Assembly: GCA_020351995.1 (NCBI GenBank)
Contig: CP070674.1
Coordinates: 1,261,145 to 1,325,144 of the forward strand
Direction: 5' to 3'
DNA length: 64,000 bases
From: Candidatus Zixiibacteriota bacterium
GTDB lineage: Bacteria; Zixibacteria; MSB-5A5; GN15; FEB-12
This document shows positions 33,423 through 44,136 of the stretch, piece by piece (within the stretch, counting starts at the first letter, position 1; each line of letters starts with the position of its first letter). The translations under genes were made by a program, and so were the position numbers. Below the pieces are notes generated by a model. It was given only the letters and a program-made list of their open reading frames with translations, had not been told where the DNA came from and did not search any database.

Positions 33423-34058
33423 ATGAAGAAGATTAATCTCCTGATGGTTGCCGCGCTGTCTCTCGTGATTGCTCCGGGAGCGCTCGCGGCGAACGATGGC
33501 GAGCAGATTGATTTCGATATCTACACCCAGGATGGTTTCGTGACCGTGTGGGTGGACATGTCATCTCTTATTACCTCCAAACGCGTAAATCAGATGGAAG
33601 ACGGAATAGATATTGCCGTTGAATACCGCCTTTCCCTGTTGCGACCCAGGAAGCTATGGGGAGCGGAAAAACTCGCCGAATCCAAAGGAGTTTTTCAGGT
33701 AGGATTTCGCGTCATTACCGAGAACTTCTTCGTATCTAACCTCTCGTCCGATAGCTCTTCGAGTAAGCACTTTTTGTCGCTGGCGCAGTTTCACAAATTC
33801 CTGGCCGATTCCATGTCCCTGAAACTGGCCGAAATCGACTCTTTAGCCGGTGATAAACGATACTACATTGAGCTTACTCTGACCTGTGTCTCACTGACGG
33901 CCTTTAATATCGCCGATACCGACGAAAGCCCGGAAGACGACAAATCGGCAGTTAAATGGCTTTTCAAAGAGTTCCTCAACCTGACCAATTTCGGCCGGCA
34001 GGACTATAAGGTTGAGTCCCGCCTGTTTTCCCTTCGGGAACTTTCGGCTGGCCGCTGA
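33423..34058 (+). CDS. DUF4390-like exported protein
   Basis: The 211-residue product has a signal peptide (LLMVAALSLVIAPGALA). Its mature region has the DUF4390 pattern of a short strand plus IAVEYRLSLLRPRKLWG and a long helix. It sits 27 bp after the barrel gene, so the two are probably co-transcribed. DUF4390 proteins are often found near NtrY/NtrX genes, as here, but their role is not known. Confidence 0.75.
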   Translation: MKKINLLMVAALSLVIAPGALAANDGEQIDFDIYTQDGFVTVWVDMSSLITSKRVNQMEDGIDIAVEYRLSLLRPRKLWGAEKLAESKGVFQVGFRVITENFFVSNLSSDSSSSKHFLSLAQFHKFLADSMSLKLAEIDSLAGDKRYYIELTLTCVSLTAFNIADTDESPEDDKSAVKWLFKEFLNLTNFGRQDYKVESRLFSLRELSAGR

Positions 34059-34161
34059 TTCAGCCGTTTCAAACCCCGGCGCCTATCAATCTTGCCGTTA
34101 ATTCCCCGCTCCTTTTTTCCGATAATAAAGGTAAGCATTTAGGGCAATGTGACTTTCGACC

Positions 34162-35370
34162 ATGAAGAACGCAGCCAAGAAAAAACCCCGACCGCGCAAG
34201 AGTAGCGCCCCTCGAGAGGTCAAGCGGGTTAAGGCAAGGGCCGCCTCAACCGATACCGGGCTCGATGCCACGGTGATTGATGCTTCTCCCGTCGGCATCG
34301 TGGCAATAGGGCACTCCGGCCAGCTCACCAGAATAAACCCGGCCGCTCTCGAAGTTTTCGACATCAACCGGGACAGCATTCCCTCACTCGGTTCGAGCCG
34401 AAAAGCAGTTATGTTTCTCGATTTGCTGCCGGAAAGGGAACAGGCGCGGTGGCAGTATATGATTAACCTGGTGATGTCGACCAGAGACAGTTATTGCAAT
34501 GACCGTTTCTTCCACAATACCGGCTATGTCGAAAAAGTGCTCTCAGTGAGGATATCACCGGTAACCACCGGTCAGGATTCGGGCCCGGGACTGGTGATCA
34601 CCGTTGAGGATGTCACCAACAGCGTCCTGATGGAAAAATATCTGATCCTGTCAGAGAAGTTGGTCGCCAAGGGGGAACTGGCTACGTCGATAGCTCATGA
34701 ACTTAACACCCACCTTGACGCGGCCCTGCGCCACGCCGACCTGCTTCCCCTTCAGATCGAGCAAAACCAGTCCGACAAGGTCAAAACAAGTTGCGGCACG
34801 ATTTCCCAGAGCGTCTCCAAAATGAGACATTTTGTCGATAATCTGGTGGATTTCTCCAAGCCACAAACGGAATACATAAGCTACGATATCAAACACCTGA
34901 TCGAAGACCTGCTGTTCTCCCTGCGAATTCAGCCCAGGTTCAGACAAACCCATTTCACTATCGATCTTAGTTCCGACATTCCCAACCTCGATATCGATGT
35001 TGGACAGATTCAGCAAGTATTTACAAACGTGCTCAATAATGCCGCCGACGCGATTGAAGAAAGAGCCATCGAGCACCAGAAAGAGGGCTGTGAACTCAAA
35101 CGGGAGATCGAGATCCAGGCCTCTTATGACAGGATATCAGATACTGTCATGGTCGACATCAGCGATAATGGCGTTGGTATGCCCGAGGGAACAATCGAGC
35201 AGATCTTCGATATGTACTTCTCCACCAAAAAGAGCGGCCACGGGCTGGGACTGTATAACTGCCGTAAGATCGTCGAGCAACACAATGGGGATATCTCGGC
35301 CCAGTCAACCTACGGCGAGGGATCGACTTTCCGAATCACTCTCCCCCGTACTCAGCCTCACACCAACTAA
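34162..35370 (+). CDS. PAS-domain histidine kinase, soluble
   Basis: The 402-residue protein has a basic N-terminal tail (KKKPRPRKS) and a PAS domain (about 35-150). The phosphoacceptor His is in SIAHELNTHLDAALRH, and the ATPase domain has N-box NVLNNAADAIEE, G1 DNGVGMPEG and G2 KSGHGLGLYNC. No membrane segments are seen, so it senses a cytoplasmic signal. No response regulator is adjacent downstream; the NtrC-like protein upstream could be a partner. Confidence 0.92.
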   Translation: MKNAAKKKPRPRKSSAPREVKRVKARAASTDTGLDATVIDASPVGIVAIGHSGQLTRINPAALEVFDINRDSIPSLGSSRKAVMFLDLLPEREQARWQYMINLVMSTRDSYCNDRFFHNTGYVEKVLSVRISPVTTGQDSGPGLVITVEDVTNSVLMEKYLILSEKLVAKGELATSIAHELNTHLDAALRHADLLPLQIEQNQSDKVKTSCGTISQSVSKMRHFVDNLVDFSKPQTEYISYDIKHLIEDLLFSLRIQPRFRQTHFTIDLSSDIPNLDIDVGQIQQVFTNVLNNAADAIEERAIEHQKEGCELKREIEIQASYDRISDTVMVDISDNGVGMPEGTIEQIFDMYFSTKKSGHGLGLYNCRKIVEQHNGDISAQSTYGEGSTFRITLPRTQPHTN

Positions 35371-35396
35371 CTCTTGCCGGCAAAAATCCGCGAACG

Positions 35397-35424
35397 AAAA
35401 AGGCAGGCCACATGGCCTGCCTTT
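35397..35424. terminator. Bidirectional terminator: PAS kinase (+) and peptide cassette 7 (-)
   Basis: A perfect 8-bp stem GGCAGGCC/GGCCTGCC with loop ACAT is flanked by five A on the left (a T tract for minus-strand transcripts) and TTTACTT on the right. It closes the peptide array and the convergent kinase gene. Confidence 0.8.
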
Positions 35425-35460
35425 ACTTAACCGGAGGTCGTCAGACTAACTGCTGTGATC

Positions 35461-35532
35461 TTACCCTTCGGCCCCATAACGCGACGGGGCGATACGGGCC
35501 TCAAGCTGCTCGATTTTAAGTTTGTAATCCAT
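35461..35532 (-). CDS. Microprotein of the LEARIAPS family, copy 7
   Basis: A 23-residue peptide starting MDYKL, with core LEARIAPS at residues 10-17 and tail RYGAEG. It is the last unit of the array in transcription direction. Its leader lacks the clear Shine-Dalgarno sequence seen in most other copies (only TTTGGA 11 bp upstream), so translation may be weak. It has the shared promoter motif at 35595-35622 and its own terminator. No Cys is present, so disulfide or lanthionine chemistry is excluded. Confidence 0.75.
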   Translation of the reverse strand: MDYKLKIEQLEARIAPSRYGAEG

Positions 35533-35594
35533 TTTGTATTTCCAAATTTGTGAGTCTCATCATATTTTCAAAGAGCTTCTCCGTTCTCACTTCC

Positions 35595-35623
35595 CTTATT
35601 TGAACTGTCCGGGGTTTCTTACA
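35595..35623 (-). promoter_or_regulatory. Array promoter motif, copy 7
   Basis: TGTAAGA, 14 bp, CAAATAAG on the minus strand. The -10-like part ends 62 bp before the start of copy 7. The spacing is identical in all seven copies. Confidence 0.8.
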
Positions 35624-35682
35624 CCATGTCTATCGTATTCTCTGAGGAACAATGGCTGAAACTACACAACTCTGTTACCCAT

Positions 35683-35711
35683 AAAAAAGGGCAGGTAGCA
35701 TCCACCTGCCC
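35683..35711 (-). terminator. Terminator of peptide cassette 6
   Basis: Stem GGGCAGGT/ACCTGCCC (8 bp) with a seven-base loop, followed by six Ts on the minus strand. Confidence 0.85.
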
Positions 35712-35734
35712 AGCTACTTCGCGATTTCGCTTGA

Positions 35735-35806
35735 TTAGCGGCTCGAGCCGTACTTCGACGGGGCGATGCGGGCTTCAAGCTCTTCGATTCTCAGTTCGTA
35801 GTTCAT
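35735..35806 (-). CDS. Microprotein of the LEARIAPS family, copy 6
   Basis: A 23-residue peptide starting MNYELRIEE, with core LEARIAPS and tail KYGSSR, the only copy ending in Arg. GGAG lies seven bases before the ATG. In the core codons it differs from copies 4 and 5 mainly at third positions. It is likely a precursor for the upstream PqqD-M50-HlyD protein; that link is inferred from position. Confidence 0.85.
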   Translation of the reverse strand: MNYELRIEELEARIAPSKYGSSR

Positions 35807-35861
35807 TTTAAATCTCCATTACTGCTTTAAAAGAACCTTCTGTTACTGCTTCCACATACTA

Positions 35862-35888
35862 TATTTGGCATTCCCGGGAGTTCTTACA
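35862..35888 (-). promoter_or_regulatory. Array promoter motif, copy 6
   Basis: TGTAAGA, 14 bp, CAAATA on the minus strand, about 55 bp before the start of copy 6. Confidence 0.8.
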
Positions 35889-35943
35889 GATCGTGTCAGG
35901 TTCTTCCTATCTGTTCATCACGGTAAACGTGAATAACAGATAC

Positions 35944-35970
35944 AAAAAAGGCAGGTAGTGTTTACCTGCC
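35944..35970 (-). terminator. Terminator of peptide cassette 5
   Basis: Stem GGCAGGTA/TACCTGCC (8 bp) with a five-base loop and six following Ts on the minus strand. Confidence 0.85.
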
Positions 35971-36012
35971 CAGCTGCTTGCTGTGGTCATTTGACCTTAC
36001 TGTCTTCCCGGA

Positions 36013-36081
36013 TCAGCCGATGCCGTACTTCGACGGAGCGATACGGGCCTCCAGATGCTCAACTTTCAGTTCGTAGTTCAT
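36013..36081 (-). CDS. Microprotein of the LEARIAPS family, copy 5
   Basis: A 22-residue peptide starting MNYELKVEH, with core LEARIAPS and tail KYGIG. The leader is the shortest of the array (31 bp from the -10-like element), with TGGAGG seven bases before the ATG. It is the one copy in which the residue after YG is Ile rather than Ala or Ser. Confidence 0.85.
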   Translation of the reverse strand: MNYELKVEHLEARIAPSKYGIG

Positions 36082-36111
36082 TTCAAAACCTCCATTACTG
36101 CTTTCATAAAT

Positions 36112-36140
36112 CTTATTTGGAGAGTTCAACCTTTCTTACA
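36112..36140 (-). promoter_or_regulatory. Array promoter motif, copy 5
   Basis: TGTAAGA, 14 bp, CAAATAAG on the minus strand, 31 bp before the start of copy 5. This close placement favours a core promoter rather than a distant activator site. Confidence 0.8.
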
Positions 36141-36164
36141 GCTGGTTAACGACCCTGGAGGGCA

Positions 36165-36195
36165 TAAAAAAAGGGCAGGTATCATTAGCCTGCCC
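36165..36195 (-). terminator. Terminator of peptide cassette 4
   Basis: Stem GGGCAGG/CCTGCCC (7 bp) followed by eight Ts on the minus strand. Confidence 0.8.
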
Positions 36196-36235
36196 AGCTG
36201 CTTTATGTGGCCTCCTGGCCTTTCTGGAACCCTGC

Positions 36236-36304
36236 TTATTCCGCGCCGTAGCGGGAAGGAGCGATGCGGGCTTCCAACTGCTCGATTCTCAGTTCGTAGT
36301 TCAT
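36236..36304 (-). CDS. Microprotein of the LEARIAPS family, copy 4
   Basis: A 22-residue peptide starting MNYELRIEQ, with core LEARIAPS and tail RYGAE. It matches the array consensus at every position. CGGAGG lies seven bases before the ATG. Confidence 0.88.
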   Translation of the reverse strand: MNYELRIEQLEARIAPSRYGAE

Positions 36305-36370
36305 CTCAAAACCTCCGGCCTTCGTTAAGTTTAAGTTTTTTAAGAGCGTTTAATTGCTGCGTTCACATAG

Positions 36371-36399
36371 CTTATTTGGCCAGGGATCGATATCTTACA
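36371..36399 (-). promoter_or_regulatory. Array promoter motif, copy 4
   Basis: TGTAAGA, 14 bp, CAAATAAG on the minus strand, 66 bp before the start of copy 4. Confidence 0.8.
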
Positions 36400-36505
36400 G
36401 GTTGGTACAAAGAAATCCTTAAAACGGGGCTGGCGAGGCCAAAAACTACCCCCGGCCCGGGCTATCATAGTGTATCACAAGAGATTACGCGCAGACCGCC
36501 CCGAG

Positions 36506-36538
36506 AAAAAGCGGAGGGCAGGAGCGCACCTGCCCTCC
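36506..36538 (-). terminator. Terminator of peptide cassette 3
   Basis: The longest stem of the array, GGAGGGCAGG/CCTGCCCTCC (10 bp), keeps the shared GGGCAGG core. On the minus strand it is followed by GC and then five Ts. Confidence 0.8.
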
Positions 36539-36576
36539 TGTTGTCCAGATATGGTGTCTAAACCATGGGCAGCTTG

Positions 36577-36645
36577 TTATTCGGCGCCGTACCTGGAAGG
36601 AGCGACGCGGGCTTCCAGCTGCTCGACCTTCAGTTCATAGGTCAT
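36577..36645 (-). CDS. Microprotein of the LEARIAPS family, copy 3
   Basis: A 22-residue peptide starting MTYELKVEQ, with core LEARVAPS (Val replacing Ile) and tail RYGAE. AAGGAGG lies seven bases before the ATG, the best ribosome site among the copies. A longer leader contains a GC-rich inverted stretch. Confidence 0.87.
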   Translation of the reverse strand: MTYELKVEQLEARVAPSRYGAE

Positions 36646-36720
36646 CTCAAAACCTCCTTACAATGTTTACACTCAAAGCAAATAGCCGCCCTGTCGGGCA
36701 GTTCTGCTCTGCCTAATGAG

Positions 36721-36749
36721 CTTATTTGTCCGGGACCGGATTTCTTACT
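36721..36749 (-). promoter_or_regulatory. Array promoter motif, copy 3
   Basis: AGTAAGA, 14 bp, CAAATAAG on the minus strand, about 75 bp before the start of copy 3. Confidence 0.8.
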
Positions 36750-36761
36750 GTCCCAGACAAG

Positions 36762-36788
36762 AAAAAGGGCAGGTACTTTGACCTGCCC
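36762..36788 (-). terminator. Terminator of peptide cassette 2
   Basis: Stem GGGCAGGT/ACCTGCCC (8 bp) with a six-base loop, followed by five Ts on the minus strand. It ends only 13 bp before the next promoter motif. Confidence 0.85.
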
Positions 36789-36828
36789 AACTGCTTTGCG
36801 GGTCGTAAGACCTAACTGATGACCGGGA

Positions 36829-36897
36829 TCAGTCCGCGCCCCAACGGGACGGAGCGATACGGGCCTCCAGGTGCTCGACTTTGAGTTCGTAGTTCAT
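36829..36897 (-). CDS. Microprotein of the LEARIAPS family, copy 2
   Basis: A 22-residue peptide starting MNYELKVEH, with core LEARIAPS and tail RWGAD, where Trp replaces the usual Tyr. TGGAG lies nearby (GGAG, seven bases before the ATG). Aromatic exchange at this position supports a selected peptide rather than a random frame. Confidence 0.86.
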   Translation of the reverse strand: MNYELKVEHLEARIAPSRWGAD

Positions 36898-36953
36898 TTC
36901 AAAATCTCCATTACTGTTTTAAAAGAACCTTTAGTTACTGCGTCCACTAAACA

Positions 36954-36980
36954 TATTTGGCGGAATGTGAAAACCTTACA
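36954..36980 (-). promoter_or_regulatory. Array promoter motif, copy 2
   Basis: TGTAAGG, 14 bp, CAAATA on the minus strand, about 56 bp before the start of copy 2. It is the only copy with G at the last -35-like position. Confidence 0.75.
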
Positions 36981-37021
36981 GCACCCGGAATATTTTTCCA
37001 GTCTTACCTCCTTTCCTGCAC

Positions 37022-37048
37022 AAAAAAAGCAGGCACCAGGGCCTGCTT
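37022..37048 (-). terminator. Terminator of peptide cassette 1
   Basis: Stem AGCAGGC/GCCTGCT (7 bp) with a six-base loop, followed by seven Ts on the minus strand. The stem keeps the GCAGG core of the other cassettes. Confidence 0.85.
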
Positions 37049-37083
37049 CCGAGTTTTCGCAGTTTTTTTAAGCAGCTGGGCAT

Positions 37084-37170
37084 CTAGGCCATTCCGTTTG
37101 GCGCGTCCGCACCATAACGGGATGGCGCGATCCGCGACTCCAGCTGTTCGAGCCGCAACTCGTAGTACAT
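37084..37170 (-). CDS. Microprotein of the LEARIAPS family, copy 1
   Basis: The 28-residue first member starts MYYELRLEQ, has core LESRIAPS and tail RYGADAPNGMA, six residues longer than the other copies. AGGAGG lies six bases before the ATG. It is closest to the PqqD-M50-HlyD gene and is the most divergent copy in both protein and DNA. Confidence 0.83.
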   Translation of the reverse strand: MYYELRLEQLESRIAPSRYGADAPNGMA

Positions 37171-37230
37171 TAAGAACCTCCTGTTAACGTAATTCCATTT
37201 ACATCATACCCCTCAACGGGTCTGAAAGGT

Positions 37231-37258
37231 TTATTTGACCTCACAGCAGATTCTTACA
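37231..37258 (-). promoter_or_regulatory. Array promoter motif, copy 1
   Basis: TGTAAGA, 14 bp, CAAATAAA on the minus strand, 61 bp before the start of copy 1 and inside the 151-bp gap after the fusion gene. Confidence 0.8.
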
Positions 37259-37321
37259 ATAAAACTGCCAGGAATTGTCAGTGAGACTCTAAAGAACGTT
37301 TTAAGCGGCTCAAGCAGGTAA

Positions 37322-39631
37322 TCACCACCAGGACCAGAACTCGACCCTGATTATTGAGGCCAGCTTTCTGAGAAACAACCCAAACAATGACTTGCTGCCT
37401 ATCTCGATTTTGGCATAGCCGGTCATCCCTTTGTGAAGCAATTCATTGTCATTATTGATTATCGCCGACACGTAGAACCGGGCATCCCCCCCGCGCATCG
37501 TGGCATCTTTGGGAACGTGAATCACGTTACCTTCAAAGACCTTATCGGTAAACGTGCGCACCTTTACCTTAACACCCTGCCCCTTCTTTACCAGGTTGAT
37601 ATTGAAATCCGAAACCGGCACCAGAACTTCGATCTGCGAATACTCCGCAATACCAAGAACATGATCCTCAAGTTGATTAATGAAAACCGTCCCGGAAATC
37701 GGGGCCAGAATTGATTGATTGTCCAACTGCGTTTGCAGGAATTCAATATTCGCCGTCTGCTTCTGAATCTCAGATTTTATCACGGCCTCTTCCTCGGGTT
37801 TCGGTGGCGATTTTAACAGGCGCACTTTTGCTTGTTTATTCTCAACCTCGGCCTTAGCCACTGCCAGGGACGCCTGAGCCTCCTCCAACTCTTCCCTGGA
37901 CGCCAAATTCCTGTCGACCAGTTCCTGCATGCGGCTCTCATCATTTACCTTTTGCCTGTACACGGCCCGCGCCGCGGCCACTTCAGCCTCGGCTTCGTCG
38001 ATCTCCTCGCGCTTCGGCGGGGCTTTAAGCAACTCCAGGCTGCGCTCAAACCGGTCAAGCACCGACTTAGCGGCCTCCAGTTCCGTCGAAACCTGATTCG
38101 ATACCAGCACCGCCACCGTATCGGTAGCTACAACCCGCTCACCATCCCTCACGTAGGGGACCAGATCCAGCGAGGCCATATCGGTCGAGGTCATCTGAAG
38201 ATAACTCGATTTTATCTGGGAATTTTCCCCCGCCCGCCGGAGCTTCTTTTCGAGTAATCCAAACTCATTGATGAGAAGATTGAATTCGGCCACCGGCCTG
38301 ACCGCGATCTCGCCGCTCACCCGGTGAGGAAACCTTATCACGAAGATCACCAGAATAAAAGCCACGAACAATATGATATAGGTGATCAGGCGAGCCGGTC
38401 TTTTGAGGATATCTTTCATATAGATAATATGCTGGACGGTTCCTTTACCAAGTCGGACGATGTTCGTGCGTAAGGTAAAGAATAATAAAACGAACAACAA
38501 GATTAATCCCGCGCTGCCCATTTTCGAATGAAGGAAACCGGCTAGAATCCAGAAGAAATAAATCAGAAGCGATACCGAATATATGAGGGCCGCGGTGGCG
38601 TAAATCAGAAAGATTTTCTTCTCTCGCGCGGTTGTTTTGATTTTCTCAACCGGCCACCCCAGCACCCTCCGTTTAAGAACATTTCCAAAATATTCGAATG
38701 ACTTGCTCCTCAAGTTGGGAACTTCCAGCCAATCAGAAAGCAGATAATAACCGTCGAGTTTTATCAGCGGATTGAAATTGAACATCTGGGTCACCCAGAT
38801 AATAATACCGATCAAGCGAGACAACTCGTTAATGAATGTCCCCGGGACCGTTACCCGCCACGCCAGGACCGCCAGGGCCATGAGGATGAAGCTGAAATAC
38901 GGCCCGGCGAAGGTTACCGCCAGACGGTGCCGCTTCTCTTTGAACAGCCAGGCGTCAGAGACATCGCAATAGAAACACGGCTGGAAATACATCAGCAGGA
39001 TACCGATTTCCTTGACCTCTCCCCCGTAATAGCGGCATATCAATCCGTGAGCGAACTCATGCAATACTATCAAAATGAAGAAGGCCAGGACAATCGTAAC
39101 AATAGAACCGATATTGAATATCTCCGAAAATCTGACCGCGAAATAACTCGAGTTATCCAGGAGAACCGCCGTGCCGAACAGGAAAATCAGAATTTCGATC
39201 ACGAACCAGAACGGCCGGTGAAACGGCCGGTAGATTTTCAGAACCACATCGAGAGCACGGGTCGGGTCAAAAGCCTTCAACTTCACGAATAGCAGTTTGG
39301 AAAAGAGCGAATCCCTTTCTTCGAATCCCAGGCTCTTGCGCGAGGTTACCTGTTCAGCCCGCTGATTCTCGAGGAAGTACTTGGTCTCGAGGAGGTTTAC
39401 AAACTGAAGGACGTTGTCTGCGGTTATCTGCATGTTGAATTTGGCCTGGAAGCGTTCGGCGATTTCGGAGTAGGATGTTTCCCCGTCAAGCTGGTTAACC
39501 AGCCAGAATTCCGGCTCACGAAGCCGAAAATAGCTGCCGGTGATAGGATCCTTGATATTATAGACGGTCTGACCGTCGATCTCAGCTGGAACCGAGACTA
39601 AGTCGGTGCGAAGTTTGGCGTATGCGGCCAT
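37322..39631 (-). CDS. PqqD-like / M50 intramembrane protease / HlyD adaptor fusion
   Basis: The 769-residue protein joins three modules. Residues about 1-90 resemble a PqqD-type winged-helix peptide-recognition domain (VYNIKDPITGSYFRL, then LVNQLDGETSYSEIAERF). Residues about 135-430 form a multipass M50 site-2-protease-like domain with zinc ligands HEFAH at 191-195 and the second motif NPLIKLDGYY at 287-296. Residues about 435-769 form an HlyD-type periplasmic adaptor with a long coiled coil and a lipoyl-like hairpin (QSILAPISGTVFI). Related proteins process and export peptides in RiPP systems such as YydH-type loci. The seven microprotein genes follow on the same strand, so they are the likely substrates. 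No ABC ATPase or outer-membrane factor is present here. Confidence 0.9.
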   Translation of the reverse strand: MAAYAKLRTDLVSVPAEIDGQTVYNIKDPITGSYFRLREPEFWLVNQLDGETSYSEIAERFQAKFNMQITADNVLQFVNLLETKYFLENQRAEQVTSRKSLGFEERDSLFSKLLFVKLKAFDPTRALDVVLKIYRPFHRPFWFVIEILIFLFGTAVLLDNSSYFAVRFSEIFNIGSIVTIVLAFFILIVLHEFAHGLICRYYGGEVKEIGILLMYFQPCFYCDVSDAWLFKEKRHRLAVTFAGPYFSFILMALAVLAWRVTVPGTFINELSRLIGIIIWVTQMFNFNPLIKLDGYYLLSDWLEVPNLRSKSFEYFGNVLKRRVLGWPVEKIKTTAREKKIFLIYATAALIYSVSLLIYFFWILAGFLHSKMGSAGLILLFVLLFFTLRTNIVRLGKGTVQHIIYMKDILKRPARLITYIILFVAFILVIFVIRFPHRVSGEIAVRPVAEFNLLINEFGLLEKKLRRAGENSQIKSSYLQMTSTDMASLDLVPYVRDGERVVATDTVAVLVSNQVSTELEAAKSVLDRFERSLELLKAPPKREEIDEAEAEVAAARAVYRQKVNDESRMQELVDRNLASREELEEAQASLAVAKAEVENKQAKVRLLKSPPKPEEEAVIKSEIQKQTANIEFLQTQLDNQSILAPISGTVFINQLEDHVLGIAEYSQIEVLVPVSDFNINLVKKGQGVKVKVRTFTDKVFEGNVIHVPKDATMRGGDARFYVSAIINNDNELLHKGMTGYAKIEIGSKSLFGLFLRKLASIIRVEFWSWW

Positions 39632-39692
39632 AGTTCATTTATGTTGACTCGACCTCTGGGGTCGCGATCGGGAATCATGCGGCGTTTCGGTA

Positions 39693-41447
39693 TCACACCC
39701 GCCGCAAGGTATCGATAAGTCGTTTATTATAATAGTCAATCAACTCGTCCCGGCGGACCACACCAATCACTCGCTTGCGGTCAGGCATGTTGACCACCGG
39801 GATTAGACTGAGGTCCTTAATGCCGAAAAACTTGTATGCTTTTTCCAGATCGTCATCGAAGTTGAGCACCTCGGTATCTTCCTTGACAAGGTCCTGCGCG
39901 ATCACCAGGTAGTCCAGGCTGTGCTGGCTGAGAACGGAGCGAATATCCTGAAACGATATCACGCCCTTGAAGTGTCCTTGCTTATCGTTGACGATGAAAT
40001 ATGATTCGCTCGAATGCTCGATTGTGCGAAATATCTGGGCCAGGGGTGTCGAGGCGTCAATTGTCTCGAAGTCGGAGTCCATGATCTCCCTGACCTGATG
40101 TGACTTGAGCACGTTCATATCTTTACCGCCTTTTATCTCAATCCCGCGCTTGGCCAGTTTGGCGGTATAAATCGAGTGTTTGAACAACCGCCCGGCAACC
40201 AGGGCCGAGAATACCACCGTTACCATCAGCGGCAGGATAATACGATAATCCGAGGTCATCTCGAAAATAATCAGCAGGGCTGTTATCGGCGCATGGGTGG
40301 TCGCGGCCACCATACCGGCCATCCCGACCAGGGCATACGCACCCGGCGTCGCGGTGACATCGGGAAAAAGATAGTTCATCAGAAACCCGAAGGAACCGCC
40401 AGCCACAGCTCCCATGAACAGCGAGGGAGCGAATATGCCGCCCGAGTTGCCCGAACCCAAAGTAAGCGAGGTCGCAACCAGCTTCATAAAAATCAGCAAC
40501 AGTAAAATCTCCACACCCATGTTGCCGTAAATGGTCAGTTTGATGGTCTCGTAACCGTCGGCTAAAACCTGTGGATAGAACAGGGCGATAATGCCCAGCA
40601 AAAGTCCCCCGAGAGCCGGTTTGAACATCGGCGACATCTTGAGCTTCTCAAAGAACTCTTCGAAAGCGTCGAGAGTCTTCGTGAAAAACACTCCATATCC
40701 CCCGAGGACCGCCCCCATGGTTATATACAGCGGAATCTCCCAGGCGGAAACCAGCGAATAGCTCGGGACAGCGAAAGCCGGATGGTTCCCCATGACGCTC
40801 CGGGTCACCACCGATGCCACCACTGAAGAGAGAATCACCGGGGAGAAGGTCTTGATGGCGAAATCACCCAGAATAATCTCCAGTGAGAATATCACTCCTG
40901 CGATTGGAGCGTTGAAGACCGAGGAAATCCCGGCTGCGGCACCGCACCCCACCAGAATCTTAACCCGTTCGCCTGACATCCGAAACATCTGGCCGATAGT
41001 CGAGCCTATGGCCGAGCCGATTTGTACGATAGGACCTTCACGCCCGGCCGAACCACCGGATCCTATACAAATGGCCGAAGCTACTGTTTTTGCGGCGGCT
41101 ACCCGGGGCCTGATAATACCACCGAGACGAGCCACCGCGTTCATCACCTCCGGTACGCCGTGTCCTTTGGCTTCGGAGGCGTATTTAAAAACAATAGGGC
41201 CGACTAACAACCCGCCCAGCATGGGGATTGCCGGGAGCCAGAATTTGAATCCGCGCTCACCGATCGTCTCAGTGAGAATCTGGTCGGTCAGACCGAAAAA
41301 CAGGTCATTGAAAGTCCTGATAAGTTTCACAAAGCCGATAGCGCCGAGGGCGGTAGTCAGACCGACGAATACTGACATGATAATAAGAACATTTGTCCCT
41401 GAGATATGAACGCGCTTGAGCAGACTATCGAGATACGGCACATGCAT
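39693..41447 (-). CDS. ClC-family chloride channel/transporter with CBS pair
   Basis: The 584-residue protein has the ClC membrane core (about 15-440). Selectivity-filter motifs are GSGGSAGREGPIVQIGS, GSGNSGGIFAPSLFMGA and a later helix. Glu in GREGP corresponds to the gating glutamate. Two CBS domains follow (about 455-575), which usually bind nucleotides and regulate the channel. Transport direction (channel or Cl-/H+ antiporter) cannot be assigned. It ends 61 bp before the PqqD-M50-HlyD gene on the same strand; a shared transcript is possible but a functional link is unproven. Confidence 0.92.
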   Translation of the reverse strand: MHVPYLDSLLKRVHISGTNVLIIMSVFVGLTTALGAIGFVKLIRTFNDLFFGLTDQILTETIGERGFKFWLPAIPMLGGLLVGPIVFKYASEAKGHGVPEVMNAVARLGGIIRPRVAAAKTVASAICIGSGGSAGREGPIVQIGSAIGSTIGQMFRMSGERVKILVGCGAAAGISSVFNAPIAGVIFSLEIILGDFAIKTFSPVILSSVVASVVTRSVMGNHPAFAVPSYSLVSAWEIPLYITMGAVLGGYGVFFTKTLDAFEEFFEKLKMSPMFKPALGGLLLGIIALFYPQVLADGYETIKLTIYGNMGVEILLLLIFMKLVATSLTLGSGNSGGIFAPSLFMGAVAGGSFGFLMNYLFPDVTATPGAYALVGMAGMVAATTHAPITALLIIFEMTSDYRIILPLMVTVVFSALVAGRLFKHSIYTAKLAKRGIEIKGGKDMNVLKSHQVREIMDSDFETIDASTPLAQIFRTIEHSSESYFIVNDKQGHFKGVISFQDIRSVLSQHSLDYLVIAQDLVKEDTEVLNFDDDLEKAYKFFGIKDLSLIPVVNMPDRKRVIGVVRRDELIDYYNKRLIDTLRRV

Positions 41448-41787
41448 GACGGATTACAATCTATTGGGTTTTTGGAATTTGTTCAAGGCTTTATTGGGAG
41501 GGGCAATCAGGCTATCATTTGGGGCCTGGCGAAGCTGCCCGGAACCATCTCGCCGTGAAACCCCTTGTCCCTCAGGCCGTATGTATTATATTAAGAAGGT
41601 CAGCTATTAGCTCCGATCAGTAGCAGCAGATACTTCGATGCCCGCCCCTATCGGGCGTGGCACAGCATGTTTTTTCAGGAAACGCGCCTCAACCGCCCGC
41701 CATTACCGGGAAAACATGATTTCATACAGTATGGTAGTATTCAAATTAACAACGCTGATTCCAGCAGTTCTATCGAGGAGATATTCG
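41448..41787. other. Divergent intergenic region without recognised genes
   Basis: The 340 bp separate the ClC gene from the FG-GAP gene. In-frame codons run upstream of the latter to 41638, but a good ribosome site only precedes 41788, so the upstream part is taken as leader. A GCCCG-CCCCTAT-CGGGC hairpin lies near 41642-41658. No clear promoter or other gene was seen. Confidence 0.5.
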
Positions 41788-44136
41788 ATGTGGAAGATTA
41801 TTGTTCCCGCCGCTATTTTAGCCATGCTTCTTTCAGCATCCAGTGCTTTCCCTCTGGAACCTCTCTTTGAGGCCGGCATCAATTATGCCGCGAATGACGG
41901 CCCACGCTCGGTTTGTGCCGCGGATCTCAATGGCGATGCAATCGTCGACTTCGCCGTGGCTAACCAGCTTTCCTGCGACGTATCAATTCTTATTGCCAAT
42001 GGCGATGGCACCTACCAGGCCCCGGTAAATTACCCTAGCGGTGATTGGTCACAGTCGGTCGCGGCCGTTGATTTCGACGGCGATGGTGATAACGATCTGG
42101 CGGTCGCCAGCTCTGCTCTCGGGGTATCAATCCTCACCAATAACGGTGACGGTACCTTCGCCCCTATGGTTGCGTATGCCGCCGGACTGGGGTCACGCTG
42201 GTTATGCGCGGCTGATTTCGACGGAGATTCAGACTTCGACCTGGCCGTGGCCAATATGGGCTCGGCCGACTTTTCCATATTACTTAATAACGGAGATGCC
42301 ACCTTCTCCACGGCGGTCAATTATCCAGTCGGCACTGAGCCCTTTTTCGTGGCCACCGCTGACTTCGACAAGGATGATGATTATGACATCGTGGTCGTGA
42401 ATGGCTACTCCGACGATGTTTCGGTTCTGCTAAATAACGGTGACGCCACTTACCAGCCCGCCGTCAATTATGCCGCCGGGAGCGGCCCGCGAGCGGTTTC
42501 ATGCACCGACTTCGACTTAGACGGTAACCTCGATATGGCCATCGCCAACTTCGAATCCGACGACGTTACCGTTCTCATGGGCGCCGGCGACGGCTCGTTT
42601 TCGGGCTCGACAGCTTACGGCGCGGCTCATGGCCCATTCGGCATCACTAGCGCCGACATCGATAACGACGGCAACGCCGATATTGTCGTGGCGGCTGAAT
42701 ACTTGTCTATTCTAAGAAACAACGGTGACGGAACGTTCACGCACAGTGCGGACCATGGCGGACCCGGCGGTATAAGTTGCGTAATTTGCTACGATCTTGA
42801 TGATGACGGTTACCCGGACGTGATTATGTCCGGCCAGGGCAGTGATAATGTCGGTGTCCTGATGAATAATGGTGACGGTACCTTCCCGGCCCTGTACCGA
42901 TGCGCAGCCGGTAACGGAGCCATAGATGTCTGCGCCGCGGACTTCAACGGGGACGGGCATATCGACCTGGCCAGCGCGAATTACCTCAGCGACGATTTTA
43001 CCGTCGTCCTTAACAATGGCGACTCCACTTTTGTTGACTTTGAATATTACCGGACAGGAAAGGGCCCGAGCGGAATCACCGCCGCGGATTTTGACAGCGA
43101 CGGTGATTATGACGTTGTTACGGCCAACAGAAATTCCAATAGTTTTTCCTACCTGCAAAACAACGGTGATGCTACTTTCGAGCCCGGGGTCAGGTACCAG
43201 ACGCAGGATCATCCTTTCTCCGTTGAGTCGGCCTACCTTGATGGCGACAGCCATCACGACATCGTGGTGGTAAATCGGAGCAGCAACAGTATCTCGGTTT
43301 TCATCAACAATGGCGACGGAACCTTCCAGCCCGGCGTTAGTTACTATGCCGGAACCCAGCCGCAATTTGTGGCGGTAGCTGATTTCGACAACGACAGCGA
43401 TCTTGACGTAGCCGTAAGCTGCGAAACCAATCTGGCCGCCTTGCTGTCCAACAACGGTGACGGAACCTTCCAGTTTCTGGATTTTATTCAGGCCGGAGGT
43501 GATCAGGCAATCGGCGCCGCCGATATGGACGATGATGGTGATATCGATCTGATCACGGGGAGCTACGTTAGTCCCAATCCTCACCAGGCCTGCGTCGTGC
43601 TCAACAACGGCGACGGAACCTTTCAGGCACCGGTTTGCTATCCCGCCGGTCAGGTCCCGAATGGTATTGTCGCAGCCGATTTTGACGGTGATGGTGCCAA
43701 TGACCTGGCCGTCGTCAACAGGGATTCCCGGGATGCTTCAATATTATTGAACTACGGTGACGCTACTTTTGGACCTGCCACCAATTATCAAGTAAGGTAT
43801 AGCCCGGATGCGGTCATAGCGGTCGACATCGACAACGATAGCGATCTTGACCTCGCCGTAGCTAACAGTGGCTCTGACGATTTATGTATCCTTCTCAACT
43901 TTGGTGGCGGATCCGGCGGTACTTGCTGTGTTCTCCGTGGTGACATTGACCGCAGTGGTCAGTTCAACGTGCTTGATATCGATATGTTTATTAGCTGGCT
44001 TTACCGCTCCGGCGCGGAACCGGAGTGCCTGGAGGAAGCCGACGCAGACGGTAACGGCCAGGCCGATATCCTCGATATCGACTACATGATAGACTACCTG
44101 TATCGAGGGGGCCCGCCGCTGGTCCCGTGTCCATAG
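41788..44136 (+). CDS. Large secreted FG-GAP/VCBS-repeat protein with C-terminal dockerin-like domain
   Basis: From ATG 41788 (GAGGAG eight bases upstream) the protein is 782 residues. A signal peptide (IIVPAAILAMLLSASSAFPL) is followed by some fifteen repeats of about 45-50 residues. They share the pattern of an acidic calcium loop (ADFDGDGDNDLAVAN) and LLNNGDGTF, as in FG-GAP/VCBS beta-propellers. The last about 65 residues form a dockerin type I-like pair of calcium loops (DIDRSGQFNVLDID and DADGNGQADILDIDYM). It is probably a surface or secreted adhesin-like protein. No catalytic domain is seen. Confidence 0.88.
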   Translation: MWKIIVPAAILAMLLSASSAFPLEPLFEAGINYAANDGPRSVCAADLNGDAIVDFAVANQLSCDVSILIANGDGTYQAPVNYPSGDWSQSVAAVDFDGDGDNDLAVASSALGVSILTNNGDGTFAPMVAYAAGLGSRWLCAADFDGDSDFDLAVANMGSADFSILLNNGDATFSTAVNYPVGTEPFFVATADFDKDDDYDIVVVNGYSDDVSVLLNNGDATYQPAVNYAAGSGPRAVSCTDFDLDGNLDMAIANFESDDVTVLMGAGDGSFSGSTAYGAAHGPFGITSADIDNDGNADIVVAAEYLSILRNNGDGTFTHSADHGGPGGISCVICYDLDDDGYPDVIMSGQGSDNVGVLMNNGDGTFPALYRCAAGNGAIDVCAADFNGDGHIDLASANYLSDDFTVVLNNGDSTFVDFEYYRTGKGPSGITAADFDSDGDYDVVTANRNSNSFSYLQNNGDATFEPGVRYQTQDHPFSVESAYLDGDSHHDIVVVNRSSNSISVFINNGDGTFQPGVSYYAGTQPQFVAVADFDNDSDLDVAVSCETNLAALLSNNGDGTFQFLDFIQAGGDQAIGAADMDDDGDIDLITGSYVSPNPHQACVVLNNGDGTFQAPVCYPAGQVPNGIVAADFDGDGANDLAVVNRDSRDASILLNYGDATFGPATNYQVRYSPDAVIAVDIDNDSDLDLAVANSGSDDLCILLNFGGGSGGTCCVLRGDIDRSGQFNVLDIDMFISWLYRSGAEPECLEEADADGNGQADILDIDYMIDYLYRGGPPLVPCP

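Follow-up and report, generated by a model that had tools for sequence, protein, structure and literature searches.

A 64,000-nucleotide stretch of the genome of a Candidatus Zixiibacteriota bacterium (the window) encodes a protein in which an RRE/PqqD-like domain, an M50 site-2 protease and a HlyD/MacA-type adaptor are joined in one chain, and seven short peptide genes lie directly downstream of it on the same strand. We consider it fairly probable that this is a peptide-release system, in which the leader of each peptide is bound by the fusion protein and cleaved off behind IAP, and the C-terminal peptide released in this way likely acts as a signal. A preliminary description of the locus had put forward the three-part chain, its intact zinc site with the second motif NPLIKLDGYY and its position directly upstream of a peptide array, and all of these are borne out by the results below.

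Domain architecture of the fusion protein and the peptide array

The features of the locus are listed in Table 1. The model of the N-terminal domain shows a three-stranded sheet and three helices, as in the PqqD fold, and its best matches among solved structures are lasso-peptide RREs bound to leader peptide (residues 3-89 against the lasso B1 RRE structures 6jx3_B, Z 10.9, rmsd 2.5, and 5v1v_A, Z 10.2, rmsd 2.6, with 83 residues aligned in each case), followed by TigE (Z 9.5) and PqqD (5sxy, Z 8.6). The Pfam model PF05402 scored below its cut-off for the window protein (19.4 versus 23.4) and was matched at E<=0.1 by 33 of the 56 N-termini scanned, the window protein included, and a search of the PDB sequences with the RRE profile returned weak matches only (best E 0.05). 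The identity of this domain as PqqD/RRE is settled by the modelled fold. In RREs, the leader sits between alpha3 and beta3 (PMC7470986).

Peptidase_M50 (PF02163) exceeds its Pfam cut-off in the fusion protein (39.8 versus 27.2 bits), and an HExxH motif and a distal Asp are found in the membrane domain of all 65 relatives aligned. The HlyD families of Pfam and TIGR01730 (3e-15) score below their cut-offs, and it is the structure, with its alpha-hairpin, lipoyl and barrel fold, that identifies the adaptor. Residues 433-754 of the model matched MacA (9qgy_G) with Z 15.4 and an rmsd of 13.1 over 253 aligned residues, a value which indicates that the parts of the adaptor are angled differently, and a MacA-MexA chimera (4dk1_C) with Z 14.6 and an rmsd of 3.9 over 217. 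In the AlphaFold model of the whole protein (mean pLDDT 84, pTM 0.53, from an alignment of 65 sequences), the N-terminal domain is followed by membrane helices and then by the long adaptor. Clear helices were predicted from hydropathy at residues 140-158, 171-189, 237-255, 349-367, 374-392 and 414-432, and the model contains an additional one near 266-285; with a total of seven, the RRE would face the cytosol and the adaptor the periplasm.

The seven peptide genes code for LE(A/S)R(I/V)APS peptides of 22-28 amino acids between positions 35461 and 37170, and a search of the 3.6-Mb genome for the E.LE.R.AP-type DNA pattern found these seven and no others. None of the seven peptides matched Pfam or NCBIfam at E<=10. 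Pairwise base differences among the copies fall on codon position 3 in 195 of 309 cases and on position 2 in 34, the bias that selection on coding sequence would produce. A promoter-like element, GTAAG-N15-CAAATA, stands ahead of each copy (starts at 35597, 35862, 36114, 36373, 36723, 36954 and 37232). With a looser form of the pattern, eight matches were found in the window where 0.11 were expected, seven at the array and the eighth, with a longer spacer, off it. Seven of the ten exact matches in the genome are in the array; the remaining three are at G000:C1:2188944, 2207322 and 2503947 (loci L245-L247). The element was present in 34 of 247 fetched loci, and those that could be placed belong to the genus of the window. 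Terminator-like hairpins were found after four of the copies, and similar sequences were seen by eye behind the remaining ones. No sigma-70-like promoters were found in the array, and Rfam gave no match across 34000-42000.

Table 1. Features of the locus (positions in the window; peptides are written as predicted leader + C-terminal part)
Feature	Position	Strand	Basis or remark
RRE(PqqD-like)-M50-HlyD fusion protein	37322..39631	-	single ORF, 769 aa, ATG start
RRE/PqqD-like domain, residues 1-89	39365..39631	-	model of residues 1-111, pTM 0.71; fold matches
HEFAH zinc site, residues 191-195	39047..39061	-	H191, E192, H195 identical in 65/65 aligned rows
NPLIKLDGYY, second conserved M50 motif with D293, residues 287-296	38744..38773	-	D293 in 65/65 rows
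MacA/HlyD-type adaptor, residues 433-748	37388..38335	-	MacA structure match; TIGR01730 (below cut-off)
Peptide 1	37084..37170	-	MYYELRLEQLESRIAP + SRYGADAPNGMA
Peptide 2	36829..36897	-	MNYELKVEHLEARIAP + SRWGAD
Peptide 3	36577..36645	-	MTYELKVEQLEARVAP + SRYGAE
Peptide 4	36236..36304	-	MNYELRIEQLEARIAP + SRYGAE
Peptide 5	36013..36081	-	MNYELKVEHLEARIAP + SKYGIG
Peptide 6	35735..35806	-	MNYELRIEELEARIAP + SKYGSSR
Peptide 7	35461..35532	-	MDYKLKIEQLEARIAP + SRYGAEG
Promoter-like elements GTAAG-N15-CAAATA (x7), one ahead of each peptide	35597..37257	-	pattern search
Terminator-like hairpins after peptides 2, 3, 5, 6	35689..36788	-	hairpin search
PAS histidine kinase, tail-to-tail with the array	34162..35370	+	TPR protein stands between in relatives
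ClC chloride channel with CBS domain	39693..41447	-	upstream neighbour, conserved in part of the phylum

The block kept in the window consists of genes for a histidine kinase, NtrC, Omp85, DUF4390 and a second histidine kinase, followed by the peptides, the fusion and ClC. The kinase next to the array (402 aa) is made up of PAS, HisKA and HATPase domains alone; a relative in locus L003 is longer, at about 600 aa, and has a GAF domain in addition. No modification enzyme was found among the nearest annotated genes or, by eye, in the list of open reading frames of the 64 kb. The same holds for the daptide decarboxylase, aminotransferase and methyltransferase, the genes beyond the nearest annotated ones again being judged by eye. 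No pump or outer-membrane channel adjoins the fusion gene, and neither these nor an importer were identified for the peptide system.

Leader motif and relationship to daptides

Across the phylum, the peptides follow the consensus Y-x-L-x-[IV]-E-x-L-E-x-[RK]-[IV]-A-P, so that their conserved part ends in LExxxAP with the spacing of the daptide leader ELExMEAP; when aligned on the Pro, both share L(-7), E(-6), A(-2) and P(-1). In daptides, an RRE is fused to the N-terminus of a site-2 protease, as in our fusion, the precursors are likewise short and encoded in several copies, with the Pro of ELExMEAP at -1, and the RRE-S2P protease (MpaP/DapP) is said to remove the leader (PMC10036551). Residues 28-387 of the fusion match the daptide leader protease model NF041824 at 1e-65, although below its cut-off (222 versus 300 bits), and the first half of the fusion is, as judged from its sequence, homologous to this protease. 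A leader profile built from 76 phylum peptides ranked the precursors of two daptide loci, assigned as such by NF041824 matches above cut-off, at 1-3 of 7624 sequence windows (L220) and 1-2 of 11066 (L221). The background contained no windows ending in LExxx[AVST]P and the score of the full leader is therefore flattered. With the upstream half (-14 to -7), one of four daptide leaders scores well, at a score which 161 of 1,470,448 background windows reach. The likeness upstream of position -7 is not convincing, and our claim is therefore that of a shared LExxxAP and a homologous protease; a common origin of the phylum and daptide precursors is not proven. The window system also differs from daptides, as the fusion carries an adaptor in addition, its cores of 6-12 amino acids lack a C-terminal Thr, which is found in none of the 76 phylum peptides, and no daptide enzymes were seen beside it.

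The border between leader and core can be placed by a locus of another lineage, L206, in which an RRE-M50-HlyD protein is preceded by FTLSVETLEERIAP. This peptide has the same kind of leader, followed by a wholly different Val/Gly-rich tail, which argues for a border after IAP. The resulting phylum cores are 6-19 amino acids long (median 8) and mostly of the type ..S.GGQ; those of the window genus start with S[RK][YWF]G. In a further locus (L222:5576-5875, minus strand), a peptide behind an RRE-M50 protein ends in ELEDRLAASSLPLAGNTIPM and has a high leader-profile score; its long N-terminal part resembles, by eye, a nitrile-hydratase-type leader.

Other M50 and related proteases also act on small peptides. 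YydH/LiaK, which matures epipeptides, is likewise an M50 protease for short peptides, and its model NF058609 is weakly homologous to the protease part of the fusion only; its precursors differ from the window peptides. TmcP of the TMcins is also an S2P-clan protease that removes a leader in the membrane, but it belongs to the DUF3267 family and its substrate contains a transmembrane helix (PMC13252029).

Alternatively, the peptide might not be a substrate but a docking or regulatory element that switches the protease of the fusion onto another target. The conserved part makes up nearly the whole peptide, and a published title speaks of peptidase activation by a leader-bound RRE, both of which would agree with such a role; the quite different long tail behind the same leader in L206 and the homology of the fusion to a leader-removing protease speak against it, and we judge it unlikely.

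Distribution across the phylum and the convergent TPR gene

Named relatives belong mostly to Zixibacteria or candidate division GN15. Of 132 genomes of the phylum, 101 carry the fusion at E<=1e-30; among the 78 of good quality, the number is 63. The co-occurrence of fusion and peptide, a check proposed in the preliminary description, was evident: the peptide is present in 92 of the 101 genomes with the fusion and in 6 of the 31 without it (Fisher p about 4e-14, kinship not corrected for). In this table, which was compiled by hand, G066, G072, G089, G093 and G054 were entered by pattern match alone, and G059, where the HMM did not confirm a pattern match, was scored as negative; scoring it as positive gives p = 4e-13. 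An HMM search of fetched loci detected the peptide, a short open reading frame wherever it was found, in 93 genomes, and pattern matching alone added 5; mostly there is one copy per genome. Six genomes have the peptide without the fusion and nine the fusion without the peptide, many of them drafts; a 100-N gap beside the peptide in G016 means that its missing fusion says little. In the family of the window, 38 of the 39 genomes with the fusion have the peptide, and the exception (G039) stops at a contig edge.

A wide occurrence of the fusion without LEARIAPS peptides nearby, which by the preliminary description would speak against its reading, was seen only in part. Among the 93 genomes with a placed peptide, the fusion gene stands next to it, on its upstream side and in the same orientation, in 56 and was not found there in 37, in a few owing to contig ends; in families f4, f7, f10 and f12-f16, the peptide lies elsewhere in the genome. 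No leader-like peptide was found beside the full or partial fusions of other lineages in L207-L213, so that outside the phylum the pairing is seen in one fusion locus, L206, besides the daptide loci. A reading ELETRVVP in an Armatimonadetes relative (L016), about 4.5 kb away on the opposite strand (HMM E 0.05), was not counted. Some genomes of the phylum, such as G106 (L103) and G037 (contig C22, L087), contain an additional RRE-M50 reading that lacks the HlyD part (frames of 383 and 449 aa). L146 (G013) has the peptide and a TPR gene, but no fusion was found; its peptide ends in ..SNGRP instead of ..GGQ, possibly through decay following loss of the fusion.

Beyond what the preliminary description contained, the peptide has a further partner in relatives. 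Of 88 assessable genomes (the 93 peptide genomes minus 5 with too little flank), 80 have a gene for a large TPR protein convergent with it, stop to stop and within 400 bp (median gap 50 bp), and this pair, together with its breaking up in the genus of the window, is what is new here. The TPR proteins are about 950-1240 amino acids long where complete, with the TPRs in the C-terminal half; Pfam scans of six showed a protein kinase domain ahead of the TPRs in four (L003, L145, L160, L137), an AAA domain in L173 and neither of these in L185. The gene is not found at this place in G000, G015 and G016, all of the window genus, nor in G044, G063, G071, where it is 2.3 kb off, G104 and G107. It is missing from the block in the window, and the best matches elsewhere in that genome are kinase domains with about 26-32% identity, besides a few weak TPR matches. 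In the same genus, the peptide is present in 7 (G000), 4 (G015) and at least 5 (G017) copies. The loss of the TPR gene, the multiplication of the peptides and the change of their C-terminal part suggest a signal rather than an antibiotic; a core that changes where the partner is missing fits this reading, within a single clade. In RRNPP quorum sensing, a short propeptide gene stands beside a TPR protein and the C-terminal end of the propeptide may be the ligand. The relatives resemble this arrangement but differ by a kinase or AAA N-terminus in most proteins tested, convergent genes and a different protease, and the window itself has no TPR partner, so that the idea of a signal cannot be derived from it alone.

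One might instead regard the peptides as RiPP antibiotics or bacteriocins aimed at competitors, with cores modified by enzymes encoded elsewhere, given that daptides combine RRE-S2P proteases with multi-copy precursors and that the window has seven copies. We think this improbable, as the system is near-universal in the phylum, mostly with a single copy and a core of one type, none of the 76 peptides ends in Thr and no modification enzyme was found among the nearest annotated genes or, by eye, in the 64 kb. That fusion, peptide and TPR genes are neighbours merely through inherited gene order, as ClC, the histidine kinase and other genes likewise stay put in many loci, is more improbable still, since families whose fusion gene has moved away keep the peptide-TPR pair, and their genomes still contain both fusion and peptide.

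Proposed mechanism and biological role

We propose that the cytosolic RRE domain binds the leader of each peptide and that the attached site-2 protease, with its active site in the membrane, cuts after the Pro of IAP. In the window, cleavage would free C-terminal peptides of 6-12 amino acids, such as SRYGAE, SRWGAD and SKYGIG, and the periplasmic adaptor domain might couple their release to an outer-membrane route. The small and probably unmodified product would most likely act as a signal, a role suggested by the near-universality of the system, the lack of modifying genes nearby and the TPR protein found in relatives. That protein, whose gene is convergent with the peptide gene, is the likely partner of the signal in most of the phylum; the window genus lacks it, and there the peptide has been duplicated and altered. 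The preliminary description had read the fusion as a machine for recognition, cleavage and export in one protein. The homology to the daptide protease and the LExxxAP motif further support recognition and cutting, beside the RRE fold, the intact protease site and the co-occurrence with the peptide; HlyD/MacA adaptors function together with an energised pump and a channel in the outer membrane, and as such partners are not encoded next to the fusion, export by one protein is not supported.

LExR N-terminal motifs are known from Planctomycetes, and a literature search on these gave nothing of use. No matching description of the system was found in the open-access literature on PqqD with M50 and HlyD, intramembrane proteases in RiPPs, daptides, RREs with site-2 proteases and adaptors, or Zixibacteria peptides, nor were M50 or HlyD terms matched in the RRE papers PMC12710340 and PMC7470986.

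As the fusion-peptide pair recurs phylum-wide, it may serve permanently to make very short peptides, which are perhaps signals. A more far-reaching proposal, which we put forward tentatively, is that of a signalling system of diderms across the phylum, in which one RRE-protease-adaptor chain matures a tiny unmodified pheromone with a daptide-type leader motif, which is read by the convergent TPR (kinase/AAA) protein, and that the window genus dropped the reader and diversified the message. To our knowledge, the phylum has few cultured members, if any. For each genome, there is now a prediction of the leader, the cut site, the product and, in relatives, also the partner, which makes the function directly testable. 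Our findings suggest that the pair of RRE and site-2 protease, known from antibiotic-like RiPPs, also serves an apparently housekeeping peptide system throughout this phylum.
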